This document shows positions 1,701 through 6,459 of a stretch of 50,897 bases of DNA, in pieces. Under the pieces are notes generated by a model. It saw only the letters and a list, made by a program, of their open reading frames with translations, did not search any database and was not told the DNA's origin. A program made the translations under genes and the position numbers. Each line of letters starts with the position of its first letter. Position 1 is the stretch's first letter. Source of the DNA: Candidatus Nitrosopumilus sp. (lineage in GTDB: Archaea > Thermoproteota > Nitrososphaeria > Nitrososphaerales > Nitrosopumilaceae); NCBI GenBank assembly GCA_028377625.1, contig JAONKT010000002.1, positions 1 through 50,897 on the forward strand, in the 5' to 3' direction.

Positions 1701-3434
1701 CTATTCGTCGCCTTCTCCACGACCTATATCGCCTAATCCATACTCATCAATTACTTTATTTCTAAACTCTTCTTTTTCATCAATTTCTTTTTGCTCTTTC
1801 TTTTCGTCCCCTTGATATACAGTTCTAATTGGCCATGGTATTCTAATATCATATTTCTTGAACTCTTCATACATAATCATCCTTAGATCAGTTTTTGTTT
1901 TAAACTGGGCCCCATAATCTTTAACGTATAACCACATTGAAAAATCTAATGCGGAATCGTTGAATTGATTAAATCTTACCACTGGTTGTGAAATATCTAC
2001 GTGTAAATCCTTGTCACATCCACAACTTGATTTATTTTCATCTAAGTATGAACATCTGTTTTGTCTAACTAGGTGTCTTCCTTTACCATCTTTAATTTCA
2101 ATCATGCCACGTTTTCCAATTTTTACTAAAATTGCTGCAACTTGTTTAGGATCATTAAGATATGAAACACCTACAGTAACTACTGCAGGAACAAGTTTGT
2201 TTTCTTTTGTATAGTTGATAATTTGTGCTGTTACCAATTGTCTTGTAGGAATTATTGCTACAGACTCATGTAATCCATCTCTAACATATGTAACTCTAGG
2301 AGTAATTTTATGGACATATCCATTATATCCTGACTCCAATTGCACTCTTTCACCTTCTTTGAAAATATTGTCTTTTCTGATCATTAAATATGCAAAATAA
2401 TTTTGCATTGTTTCTTGTAATGCTAAACCAATACCAATGGCAAGTCCTCCTGTTGCAGTAGCTAATACAAACAAATCTACTCCCCACCAGGATACAACTC
2501 CAAGAATTGTTGCAGCAAAAATTCCTACAGGTAAAATTTGTTTAAATGATTTAGGAATTCCTTCTCTTTTTTTACGTGCGTATCCTACTGGTCGAGAACT
2601 TGGAATTAATGGCTCAAAACCATTTAACCTTTTTTCTTCTCTCCAAATATCAATTGCAAATATTTCATCTGGTTTTGCACCAGGTTTTAATTTTCTTCCT
2701 GATTGATTATTTCCAGTAATACAATTGTTAAAATATTTTAAATATTTCTTTCTTTCAGATTCTTTCCATTTTTCAAATGGATTAGTTACTAATTTTTCAT
2801 AACTTCCAATGGGATTTCCTTTTGAAGTGCGATACTGTTCTAACTTCATGATTCCTTCTTTTGTTTTACGGAGATTTTTAAATTCTTCGTCAGTAAAATC
2901 TTCAGGTGTTATAGTTGGTGGAATCCATTTGTATAATTTATGAAAAAGATCATCATCATCTGAAAAACCTTGCATATCATACCAAACTTGAAAATCTTGT
3001 TTTTCGAGAATTGATTTATCTCGTTTTGTAAGCATGATTGGAATTAAATGAGAAATTGTATAACCAATAACCAGAATGTTGAAAGTGTTGAGAATCTTTG
3101 CAAAAGTTTCTTCAGGAGTTAATTCCATTGTTGATAAATTTGTATCATTTTCAAATAATTCTGAAGTTTGAATATATGCATTAGTTGATGAGATTAAAGC
3201 AATTGCAAAAAATGGCAATACTGCATTTTGTACAAATTTTGATAAGTGTGGTCTAGTGTAAAATATTTTTTTTGATTTTATTAATGAGGAGAATGTTCTA
3301 TATGCAGCAACAATAATTATAATTCCAACTATCATTATGATGAAAGCTAATTGAAGTGATTCTGATGACGCCAATAATTGTGAAACAGTATCAAATTCAC
3401 CAACTGAAATTTGTGAAATATCTCCTTCGGCCAT
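1701..3434 (-). CDS. MscS-family mechanosensitive channel
   Basis: Predicted small-conductance mechanosensitive channel that releases solutes on hypo-osmotic shock. The 577-residue protein has an N-terminal hydrophobic helix (about 28-48), further helices near 70-88 and 113-135, and a long hydrophilic loop (about 140-295). The conserved MscS pore and beta domain lies near 300-400, with GLALQETMQNYFAYLMI matching the TM3 pore helix pattern and a following segment on RKDNIFKEGERVQ. The C-terminal cytosolic part ends in IRIPWPIRTVY, typical of the family. A Cys-rich insert (CSYLDENKSSCGCD, near residue 460) is unusual and could bind a metal. ATG start at 3434, divergent from the aminomutase-like gene. 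Confidence 0.88.
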   Translation of the reverse strand: MAEGDISQISVGEFDTVSQLLASSESLQLAFIIMIVGIIIIVAAYRTFSSLIKSKKIFYTRPHLSKFVQNAVLPFFAIALISSTNAYIQTSELFENDTNLSTMELTPEETFAKILNTFNILVIGYTISHLIPIMLTKRDKSILEKQDFQVWYDMQGFSDDDDLFHKLYKWIPPTITPEDFTDEEFKNLRKTKEGIMKLEQYRTSKGNPIGSYEKLVTNPFEKWKESERKKYLKYFNNCITGNNQSGRKLKPGAKPDEIFAIDIWREEKRLNGFEPLIPSSRPVGYARKKREGIPKSFKQILPVGIFAATILGVVSWWGVDLFVLATATGGLAIGIGLALQETMQNYFAYLMIRKDNIFKEGERVQLESGYNGYVHKITPRVTYVRDGLHESVAIIPTRQLVTAQIINYTKENKLVPAVVTVGVSYLNDPKQVAAILVKIGKRGMIEIKDGKGRHLVRQNRCSYLDENKSSCGCDKDLHVDISQPVVRFNQFNDSALDFSMWLYVKDYGAQFKTKTDLRMIMYEEFKKYDIRIPWPIRTVYQGDEKKEQKEIDEKEEFRNKVIDEYGLGDIGRGEGDE

Positions 3435-3579
3435 AATTTGTCTTGTTACTTAGTTTAATTTTCTAGAATAAAATGTTAAGCCATTTTGATTATTTAAAAA
3501 GAAAAATTCAACAATTTTTCATTTTTTCACGCCTAGAATTGTTGTAACATTTAACAAGGGTAAGGGCACTAATTACAAA

Positions 3580-4926
3580 ATGACCTATCAAAAATCAATA
3601 TGGAAAGATACCCCTTCCATGAAATCTTATACATTATCTAACTTTCGTCAACTTCCACAAATTCAACAACTTTCTGAAGAAAAACAGTTTGAAATGGAAG
3701 TTGTAGGAAATGTTTTACCTTTTAAAGCAAATAACTATGTAGTTGAACAATTAATTGATTGGAATAATATACCAAATGATCCAATTTTTGTTTTAACATT
3801 TCCTCAAAAAGGAATGTTGAAACCTGAGCATTATGAAAAAATGTCTACTGCATTAAAAAATAATGCTGATAAAAAAGAAATAGCAACCATTGCAAATGAA
3901 ATTCGTTTACAATTAAATCCACACCCAGCAGGTCAAATGGAACTTAACGTTCCAACATTAAAAGATGGAACTAAACTCTATGGTATGCAACACAAGTACA
4001 AAGAAACTTGTCTTTTTTTCCCTAGTCAAAGTCAAACATGCCATGCATATTGTAGCTTCTGTTTTAGATGGCCACAATTTGTTGGTATGGATGAAATGAA
4101 ATTTGCAATGCAAGAAGGTGAACAACTAGTTCAATATGTTAGAGAACACCCTGAAATTACTGATGTATTATTTACTGGTGGTGATCCAATGATCATGAAA
4201 GCAAAAATTTTCTCAAAATATATTGATACTTTAATTGAAGCAAATCTTCCAAATCTTAAAACTATTAGAATTGGAACAAAAGCACTAGCATATTGGCCTT
4301 ACAAATTTTTAACAGATTCAGATTCTCAAGAAATGTTAGATATTTTTAAGAAAATCACTGATAGTGGGTTACATCTTGCATTTATGGCTCATTTTAATCA
4401 TCTAAATGAATTATCTACTGATGCTGTAAAAGATGCAATTAAAGAAGTACGAAAAACAGGGGCTCAAATTAGAACTCAATCACCGCTTTTAACACATATC
4501 AACGATGATGCAGAAATGTGGGCAAAAATGTGGACAAAACAAGTTGAATTAGGTTGTATACCATACTACATGTTTGTAGTAAGAGATACAGGGGCTCAAC
4601 ATTACTTTGGAATTTCTTTAGTTAAAGCACATGAAATTTACAAAAAAGCATATTCTTCAGTAAGTGGAATAGCAAGAACTGTTCGTGGACCAAGCATGTC
4701 TGCTACACCTGGTAAAGTCCACGTAATGGGTACTACAACTGTAAATAATGAAAAAGTAATAGTTTTGAGGTTCATACAAGGCCGAAATCCTGATTGGGTT
4801 GATATTCCATTTTTTGCAAAATATGATGAAAATGCAATTTGGTTAGACGATTTAGAACCTATTTCTGATGAAAAATTCTTTTTTGAAGAGGGCATGATGG
4901 AATTTCAAAAAACTAAACTAAATTGA
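3580..4926 (+). CDS. Lysine-2,3-aminomutase-like radical SAM/PLP enzyme, probably different substrate
   Basis: A KamA-family radical SAM enzyme that would migrate an amino group between C2 and C3 of an amino acid. The [4Fe-4S] cysteines are C154, C158 and C161 (CHAYCSFC). The SAM-binding GGDPMIM follows, and K379 in ATPGK matches the PLP lysine. Aligned by eye with clostridial lysine 2,3-aminomutase, the two aspartates that hold the lysine side chain are not present: the first site reads R335 (in VVRDTG) and the second about S374. A positive residue there would suit an acidic substrate, as in glutamate 2,3-aminomutase. A glutamine synthetase gene follows 87 bp downstream on the same strand. 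ATG start. The family is firm; the substrate is inference. Confidence 0.85.
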   Translation: MTYQKSIWKDTPSMKSYTLSNFRQLPQIQQLSEEKQFEMEVVGNVLPFKANNYVVEQLIDWNNIPNDPIFVLTFPQKGMLKPEHYEKMSTALKNNADKKEIATIANEIRLQLNPHPAGQMELNVPTLKDGTKLYGMQHKYKETCLFFPSQSQTCHAYCSFCFRWPQFVGMDEMKFAMQEGEQLVQYVREHPEITDVLFTGGDPMIMKAKIFSKYIDTLIEANLPNLKTIRIGTKALAYWPYKFLTDSDSQEMLDIFKKITDSGLHLAFMAHFNHLNELSTDAVKDAIKEVRKTGAQIRTQSPLLTHINDDAEMWAKMWTKQVELGCIPYYMFVVRDTGAQHYFGISLVKAHEIYKKAYSSVSGIARTVRGPSMSATPGKVHVMGTTTVNNEKVIVLRFIQGRNPDWVDIPFFAKYDENAIWLDDLEPISDEKFFFEEGMMEFQKTKLN

Positions 4927-5013
4927 GACTAATTACCATAAAATTTACCTGACTTGATTGACAATTCTATCTTACTAGATAATATTAGTAAAATAATTTT
5001 TAAAATACAATAA

Positions 5014-6459
5014 TTGGATACTAAACAAGTTTTACAAACTATACAAGATGAAAACATATCTTTCATTGATTTTTGGTTTGTAGATATTTTTGGTGAACTT
5101 CATAATGTTGGGATGCCAAGCTATGCAATTGATGAAAATAGTTTTGTAAACGGTCTTGAAAAATTAGATGCTAGTTCAATTGTTGGATTTAAATCTGTAA
5201 ATAATTCTGATATGATTTTAATGCCTGATCCAAATTCATTTAAAATTTTACCCAATGATTATGATCCTGGACATAGAAAAAATGCACGCATATTTTGTGA
5301 TCTTTATGATGGTAGTACAAGAAAAGAATCACGATATAATAGAGATTCTCGAGGAATTGCACATAAGGCAGCTGAAAAACTAGGAGAATTTGGTTTTACT
5401 CATACAAACTGGGGTCCAGAAATAGAATTTTTTGTTTTTGATTCCATCAATGTTTACCCATCTCCTTATGCAGCAACTCATTCCGGTGGAGGTTCTGGTT
5501 ATTCCATTGAATCTAAAGAATCACCTTGGGCTAAAGGAAATGTTAGTACTGCAATCGATATCAAAGAAGGGTATTATCCATCACAACCAAAAGATACACT
5601 TGAAGGATTTCGAAAGGATGTATGTGATGATTTGTATAATTATTTTGGAATAAAAATTGAAGCTGAACATCATGAAGTTGCAACTTCTGGTCAATGTGAA
5701 ATCAATTTAGTTTATGATGAGATGATTGGTATGGCAGATAATGTAATTGCAGTTAAAAATTTAGTTAAAGTAAAAGCTAAAAGAAAAAATAAAGTTGCAA
5801 CTTTCATGCCAAAACCAATTTTTGGTGATAATGCATCAGCTATGCATACACATCAAAGCTTATGGAAAGAAAATAGTAATGTGATGTATGATCAAGATGA
5901 TCAAGTTGCACAAATGAGTCAAACTGGTAGATACTATGTTGGTGGAATTCTAAATCATGCATCAGCATTATGTGCAATTTCAAATCCTACTACTAATTCT
6001 TACAAACGTCTCGTTCCTGGATTTGAAGCACCGGTGAATGTTTGTTGGGGATTAGCAAATCGATCTACTGCGATCAGAATTCCAATGTATAATAGAAATC
6101 AAGAAAAAAGTAAAAGGATAGAATATCGTGTGCCTGATCCAACTGCAAATATCTATCTTTTAGAGGCTGCACTACTTTTAGCAGGATTAGATGGAATTAA
6201 AAATAAAATTGATCCTGGTGATCCTATTGAAGAAAATGTATACAAACTTTCTTCAGAAAAGAAAAGAGAATATAATATTGGTTCTTTACCAGTTTCATTA
6301 AAAGGTTCATTAGATTCTCTTGCAAGTGATTCTAAATTTTTAGAACAAGTCTTTACATCTGATTTTCTAGAAACATATTCTGAATTAAAATATAAAGAAT
6401 ATACTGCATTTGCACAAACACCCACAGCTTGGGAAGTTTCAATGTATGCAGATGCATAA
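5014..6459 (+). CDS. glnA: Glutamine synthetase family protein
   Basis: ATP-dependent amidation of glutamate (or an analogue) with ammonia. It has 481 residues, in the GSI range, with the N-terminal beta-grasp followed by the catalytic domain. Visible motifs are EIEFF for metal binding, HEVATSGQCEI, the glutamate/ATP loop NPTTNSYKRLVPGFEAP, NRSTAIRIP, and RIEYRVPDPTANIYL. The canonical NGSGMH segment reads NASAMH here (residues 273-278): two glycines next to the substrate pocket have become alanine. No Tyr adenylylation site was recognised. The start is TTG at 5014. Its position after the aminomutase-like gene suggests a shared role, but primary ammonia assimilation is equally possible. Confidence 0.9.
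   Translation: MDTKQVLQTIQDENISFIDFWFVDIFGELHNVGMPSYAIDENSFVNGLEKLDASSIVGFKSVNNSDMILMPDPNSFKILPNDYDPGHRKNARIFCDLYDGSTRKESRYNRDSRGIAHKAAEKLGEFGFTHTNWGPEIEFFVFDSINVYPSPYAATHSGGGSGYSIESKESPWAKGNVSTAIDIKEGYYPSQPKDTLEGFRKDVCDDLYNYFGIKIEAEHHEVATSGQCEINLVYDEMIGMADNVIAVKNLVKVKAKRKNKVATFMPKPIFGDNASAMHTHQSLWKENSNVMYDQDDQVAQMSQTGRYYVGGILNHASALCAISNPTTNSYKRLVPGFEAPVNVCWGLANRSTAIRIPMYNRNQEKSKRIEYRVPDPTANIYLLEAALLLAGLDGIKNKIDPGDPIEENVYKLSSEKKREYNIGSLPVSLKGSLDSLASDSKFLEQVFTSDFLETYSELKYKEYTAFAQTPTAWEVSMYADA

Follow-up and report, generated by a model that had tools for sequence, protein, structure and literature searches.

A probable IdnL4-like glutamate 2,3-aminomutase encoded beside mechanosensitive channels in the Nitrosopumilaceae

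We have identified a radical-SAM aminomutase, kept by most of the ammonia-oxidising archaea (AOA) in the family Nitrosopumilaceae, that is probably an IdnL4-like glutamate 2,3-aminomutase; it would produce beta-glutamate as an osmolyte, and an MscS-type channel would serve as the release valve. Our confidence is based on a changed substrate pocket, homologues in a gene set known for beta-glutamate, a published metabolite measurement and a repeated pairing with channel genes. On a more speculative reading, which we consider less likely than not, this is the first assigned archaeal aminomutase route to beta-glutamate, and marine ammonia oxidisers depend on it as their main osmolyte system.

Background

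Beta-glutamate is an achiral, non-protein amino acid that accumulates as a compatible solute. Beta-glutamic acid was the top identified metabolite of N. maritimus SCM1, with a cellular concentration of 730 mM, and its abundance in the ocean is higher at depth (Heal et al. 2021; PMC8269262). According to a 2024 study, in which trehalose was detected, few AOA encode ectoine synthesis and alternative osmolytes had previously been unidentified (PMC11428151). In sediment AOA, pathways for several known osmolytes were reported to be missing, except that for di-myo-inositol phosphate. No paper in the open literature that we searched names the beta-glutamate synthase of these archaea or the aminomutase gene, and searches with N. 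maritimus locus tags likewise gave no matches.

Results

The window analysed here is a 50,897-nucleotide stretch of a Candidatus Nitrosopumilus contig. The aminomutase gene lies at positions 3580-4926 of its forward strand and encodes 448 amino acids, which were characterized through the open reading frame, profile scores, alignments, a phylogenetic tree and a structural model. The protein has the three features of the KamA superfamily: the CxxxCxxC iron-sulfur motif (C154, C158 and C161, encoded together with R163 at 4039-4068, forward strand), an alpha-carboxylate arginine (R163, which we take to be the equivalent of R134 of lysine 2,3-aminomutase, KAM) and a PLP lysine (K379, codon 4714-4716, forward strand, aligned with KAM K337). 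The cysteine motif and R163 are also found in bacterial relatives. In an alignment of 80 orthologues, C154, C158, C161, R163, R335, S374 and K379 showed zero variation, in agreement with a sequence-only reading of the locus in which the radical SAM cysteines and the PLP lysine had been described as kept. Both the family and the cofactor residues can thus be assigned from sequence. The score against the KamA subfamily model TIGR00238 was 138.1 bits, below the cut-off of 199.2; the protein is a divergent relative, hence the name KamA-like. The sole PDB sequence match in a phmmer search was lysine 2,3-aminomutase 2a5h. The AlphaFold model was likewise closest to 2a5h_A (Z 19.3, rmsd 4.7, 296 residues aligned; next row Z 11.9), and with a mean pLDDT of 67 and low confidence at residues 336-343 it was not read for pocket geometry.

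The substrate pocket departs from that of KAM, in which D293 and D330 bind the amino group of lysine. In the phmmer alignment with 2a5h, R335 (codon 4582-4584, forward strand) stands opposite D293, with the preceding PYY(M/I)(F/Y) stretch aligned free of gaps, and a wider alignment that took in relatives from bacteria and archaea gave the same result. S374 (codon 4699-4701, forward strand) falls opposite D330 in that wider alignment, where genuine lysine aminomutases from this phylum (L128-L132, L134) served as a positive control and keep Asp at both positions. Residues 362-379 contain no acidic residue, so the second Asp is not restorable by plausible realignment. D336 directly follows R335, and pairing it with D293 needs a gap and breaks the invariant R-D-T-G column that is common to the bacterial proteins. 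R335 and S374 are present in nine bacterial homologues as well as in the 80 orthologues. The earlier proposal that R335 and approximately S374 replace both lysine-binding aspartates held, and neither Asp returned to the lysine site. In a separate KamA-like group from other Thermoproteota (L120-L127, L133), the first pocket residue is also Arg (QCRP), and the second is Ser or Ala.

These alignments bear directly on whether the enzyme is a lysine 2,3-aminomutase, the name that automated annotation gives to its bacterial relatives. The archaeal protein has the fold, cysteine motif and PLP lysine in common with that enzyme (2a5h, AblA); it differs in its substrate pocket, in insertions at the cluster loop and in an identity of only about 22-24%. 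It scored 119.8 bits against the AblA model TIGR03820 (cut-off 525.4), and no ablB-like gene was present among the neighbours examined. Because the Asp pair is absent we rejected this identity for the ORF, which we regard as extremely improbable.

The nearest relatives outside the Nitrosopumilaceae are bacterial. Searches of plasmids with tblastn returned full-length homologues from Streptomyces, Nocardia, Rhodococcus, Amycolatopsis, Nonomuraea, Burkholderia and Mycetohabitans, with 43-51% identity to the aminomutase in alignment. All nine that were aligned carry R335, S374, K379 and insertions near the cysteines. The archaeal and bacterial members formed one clade (support 100/100), within which the archaeal branch had a support of 96/100. 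The tree splits Arg-type from Asp-type proteins; its deeper placements are uncertain owing to several long branches. On one Rhodococcus plasmid (L097, 11989-17578), the gene for an IdnL4-like aminomutase adjoins genes of the cupin, flavin monooxygenase and tRNA-ligase-like types in a cluster that plausibly makes a hydrazine-type natural product.

One homologue, from Streptomyces NBC_00334 (L094; 45% identical, full length), lies between type I PKS genes together with a hydrolase, an aminotransferase-fold enzyme and an AMP-dependent ligase. The best PDB match of this stand-alone ligase was 5jjq (617 bits), presumably IdnL1, and the next entries are named beta-aminoacyl-ACP synthetase. For the proline-iminopeptidase-like hydrolase it was 3wmr, which we take to be VinJ. 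Two papers on this type of starter-unit gene set describe IdnL4 as a glutamate 2,3-aminomutase that converts glutamate to beta-glutamate, and IdnL3 as its decarboxylase; the IdnL4 step is supported by feeding and gene disruption, and the expected in vitro activity was not seen. The archaeal enzyme was placed in an IdnL4-like subfamily on the basis of its clade with bacterial proteins, including one encoded within a beta-aminoacyl starter cluster, and of its R-D-T-G and GPxMS motifs, with the IdnL4 type judged by gene neighbours and IdnL4 itself outside the tree. The likeness to IdnL4 of the incednine-type 3-aminobutyrate macrolactam clusters rests on the Streptomyces homologue, which is encoded with the matching starter-unit genes and shares R335, S374 and the additional residues near the cysteines. 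The settings differ: IdnL4 works with a decarboxylase in making an antibiotic, whereas the archaeal aminomutase has osmotic neighbours and no adjoining decarboxylase.

A second point of comparison is the glutamate 2,3-aminomutase of Clostridium difficile, reportedly described by Ruzicka and Frey in 2007. It too belongs to the KamA superfamily and lacks both lysine-binding aspartates, the first of which is replaced by a basic residue. Its two pocket positions hold Lys and Asn, in contrast to Arg and Ser in the archaeal protein, which belongs to another subfamily. The Clostridium-type family was ruled out for the ORF by a score of 93.6 bits against TIGR04368 (cut-off 650), and because of this score subfamily naming leaves the substrate unsettled.

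The sequence-only reading had proposed an acidic substrate, and this is now well supported by the pocket, by the IdnL-type bacterial homologues and by the 730 mM beta-glutamate of N. maritimus. The same Arg-pocket enzyme could instead have a different substrate (glutamine, 2-aminoadipate or a neutral amino acid), with beta-glutamate coming from elsewhere. The difference between R335/S374 and the Lys/Asn pair of Clostridium would fit such a substrate, as would the presence of Arg in the separate KamA group of other Thermoproteota and Rhizobium. We nevertheless consider it unlikely, given that beta-glutamate is the beta-amino acid for which very high levels are reported in N. maritimus and that a bacterial homologue lies in a gene set in which beta-glutamate is a known intermediate.

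Divergent from the aminomutase is a gene for an MscS-type mechanosensitive channel of 577 amino acids (1701-3434, reverse strand; PF00924 and PF21082 above cut-off). The intergenic region between the two (3435-3579) is, from its coordinates and sequence, the presumed promoter region, with a putative role in regulation. Of the 76 loci with sufficient flanking sequence, 72 have this channel as the immediate divergent neighbour of the aminomutase. Among the 200 family genomes, 113 of the 115 with the large channel also carry the aminomutase, the two exceptions being drafts. The channel is a closer-tied neighbour than the glutamine synthetase gene on the other side (GS2, described below) and was overlooked earlier.

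Genomes of genus g2 without the large channel have a different MscS of approximately 280 amino acids, located after the aminomutase and a DUF432-type gene and before GS2 where that is present (L101 8437-9273, L103 4304-5152, L104 4151-4999 and L105 4128-4997). The large and small channels are just 24-29% identical, over part of their length, and the small one is the only PF00924 match in genomes G053 and G061. In one further g2 genome (G003) neither channel adjoins the aminomutase. Two g8 genomes without a channel at this position have a Na+/H+ exchanger gene near or beside the aminomutase, recognized by PF00999 in L107 and by sequence likeness in L108. The strongest sign that the aminomutase has an osmolyte role is that it is paired with channel genes again and again. 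Na+/H+ exchanger genes (PF00999) near the aminomutase were located, in genera g2 and g8, at L107 1359-2702, L101 10995-12296 and L103 935-2248. A ribose-phosphate pyrophosphokinase gene (775-1653 in the window) follows the channel in most loci and has no evident functional link.

Across 398 genomes sampled from the whole phylum, orthologues with at least 65% identity were confined to the Nitrosopumilaceae; the other listed members of the order had none. The aminomutase was present in 128 of the 200 family genomes, many of which are incomplete, as against 12 of 200 for ectoine synthase. The single-contig genome G102, taken here as N. maritimus SCM1, carries the aminomutase, GS2, the channel and ectoine synthase. 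Three metagenome-assembled genomes (L072, L078, L081) named for the sediment AOA clades reported to lack several osmolyte pathways also have the aminomutase. So do genera suspected to be non-marine, which counts against the favoured reading. As a salinity proxy, protein charge around GS1 was compared in 20 genomes; the presumed-marine genomes were the most acidic, and genomes lacking the aminomutase were more basic in g8 but not in g4. Conservation, gene neighbours and co-occurrence of the aminomutase are thus documented at the level of genome sequence.

Labelling in methanogens excluded a glutamate aminomutase as the source of beta-glutamate (PMC1224877), so another route to this compound is possible. 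A methanogen-like hydroxyglutaryl/glutaconyl-CoA route in Nitrosopumilus would leave the aminomutase with some other job. Set against this are the acidic-substrate pocket, the osmotic neighbours and the finding that the aminomutase is the only KamA-family match in each genome, no second one having been found in the family genomes; we judge the CoA route to be quite improbable.

The gene that follows the aminomutase in the window (5014-6459, forward strand) encodes a type I glutamine synthetase of 481 amino acids, GS2, which on the basis of TIGR00653 and co-occurrence is a possible beta-glutamine synthetase. It scored 521 bits against TIGR00653 (cut-off 429), keeps the catalytic residues and is a family-restricted paralogue, 46% identical, of the universal GS1. 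The motif NASAMH, noted in the earlier reading, was found at residues 273-278 (5830-5847, forward strand), where Salmonella GS has NGSGMH (264-269), and is conserved in every GS2 checked. To call the enzyme atypical on this account, as had been done, was too strong. All catalytic and substrate residues listed for Salmonella GS are kept. Other Thermoproteota have NASGMH in their ordinary GS, so the first Ala (265) is not specific to GS2. A sequence-atypical GS2 was therefore rejected, the active site being ordinary; NASAMH is a GS2 signature, though its first Ala occurs elsewhere. The housekeeping GS1 departs further from Salmonella GS than GS2 does, with Ala or Ser at Asn264 and Asn at His271 in Salmonella numbering (L135-L138, e.g. 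G000:C15 1575-2975).

Of the 74 loci of sufficient length, 53 have GS2 adjoining the aminomutase; the synteny on which the earlier reading depended is conserved in these. GS2 was present in 81 of the 128 genomes with the aminomutase and in 1 of the 72 without it, the latter a 140-contig draft (G567); counts alone are quoted, as Fisher tests on co-occurrence ignore shared ancestry. In the genera that are mixed for the aminomutase (g4, g8), the presence of GS2 tracks it, and six genomes have GS2 apart from the aminomutase. GS2 was missing from 47 of the 128, including nearly all of genus g9. Some copies look broken, with residues 304-356 or thereabouts missing in L026 and L119 (possibly one genome) and an internal stop in L009/G068, which is consistent with GS2 being dispensable.

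A functional link between GS2 and the aminomutase is likely, and that GS2 acts on beta-glutamate is a conjecture. The pathway put forward in the earlier reading, in which the two enzymes make beta-glutamine as the main osmolyte, would add to our explanation and not compete with it. Adjacency, co-occurrence and the persistence of unlinked copies speak for it, as does a methanogen GS that makes beta-glutamine from beta-glutamate (PMC1224877). The ordinary GS2 residues, with Ala at 265 also in other GS, and the 47 genomes without the gene speak against it, and no report of beta-glutamine in these archaea was found in the literature searched. The beta-glutamate half of that proposal stands on the pocket, the homologues and the metabolite; the beta-glutamine half is weaker, and we hold the full pathway to be somewhat doubtful.

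Discussion

We infer that glutamate is the substrate and beta-glutamate the product of the aminomutase, that the product serves as an osmolyte and that the channel acts as its valve. In the proposed mechanism, L-glutamate would have its amino group shifted by the enzyme from C2 to C3, yielding beta-glutamate (3-aminoglutarate). A 5'-deoxyadenosyl radical from the C154/C158/C161 cluster would initiate the shift on the external aldimine, with PLP held by K379 and the alpha-carboxylate bound by R163. The distal carboxylate would be bound by R335, with S374, where lysine aminomutase has its two aspartates. On hypo-osmotic shock, the divergent MscS channel may open as an emergency release valve, and GS2, where present, could turn part of the beta-glutamate pool into neutral beta-glutamine.

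More tentatively, an IdnL4-like radical-SAM enzyme, a type otherwise met here in bacteria and partly in biosynthetic clusters, may have been acquired by an ancestor of the Nitrosopumilaceae and become part of an osmolyte module consisting of a beta-glutamate synthase, a dedicated MscS valve and a charge-tuning beta-glutamine synthetase. On the favoured reading of the aminomutase as a beta-glutamate synthase, the gene would offer a one-enzyme test for the AOA osmolyte gap and a genetic marker of beta-glutamate production in metagenomes. It would also point to where a nitrogen-bearing compound that is released by these highly abundant marine microbes may come from.

The ectoine synthase genes of some Nitrosopumilaceae are likewise osmolyte genes with an MscS gene nearby (G102, G307), although their chemistry is unrelated to that of the aminomutase. 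The one in G307 (G307:C5 39304-42423), approximately 1 kb from ectoine synthase, is a paralogue of the large channel encoded in the window and 55% identical to it.
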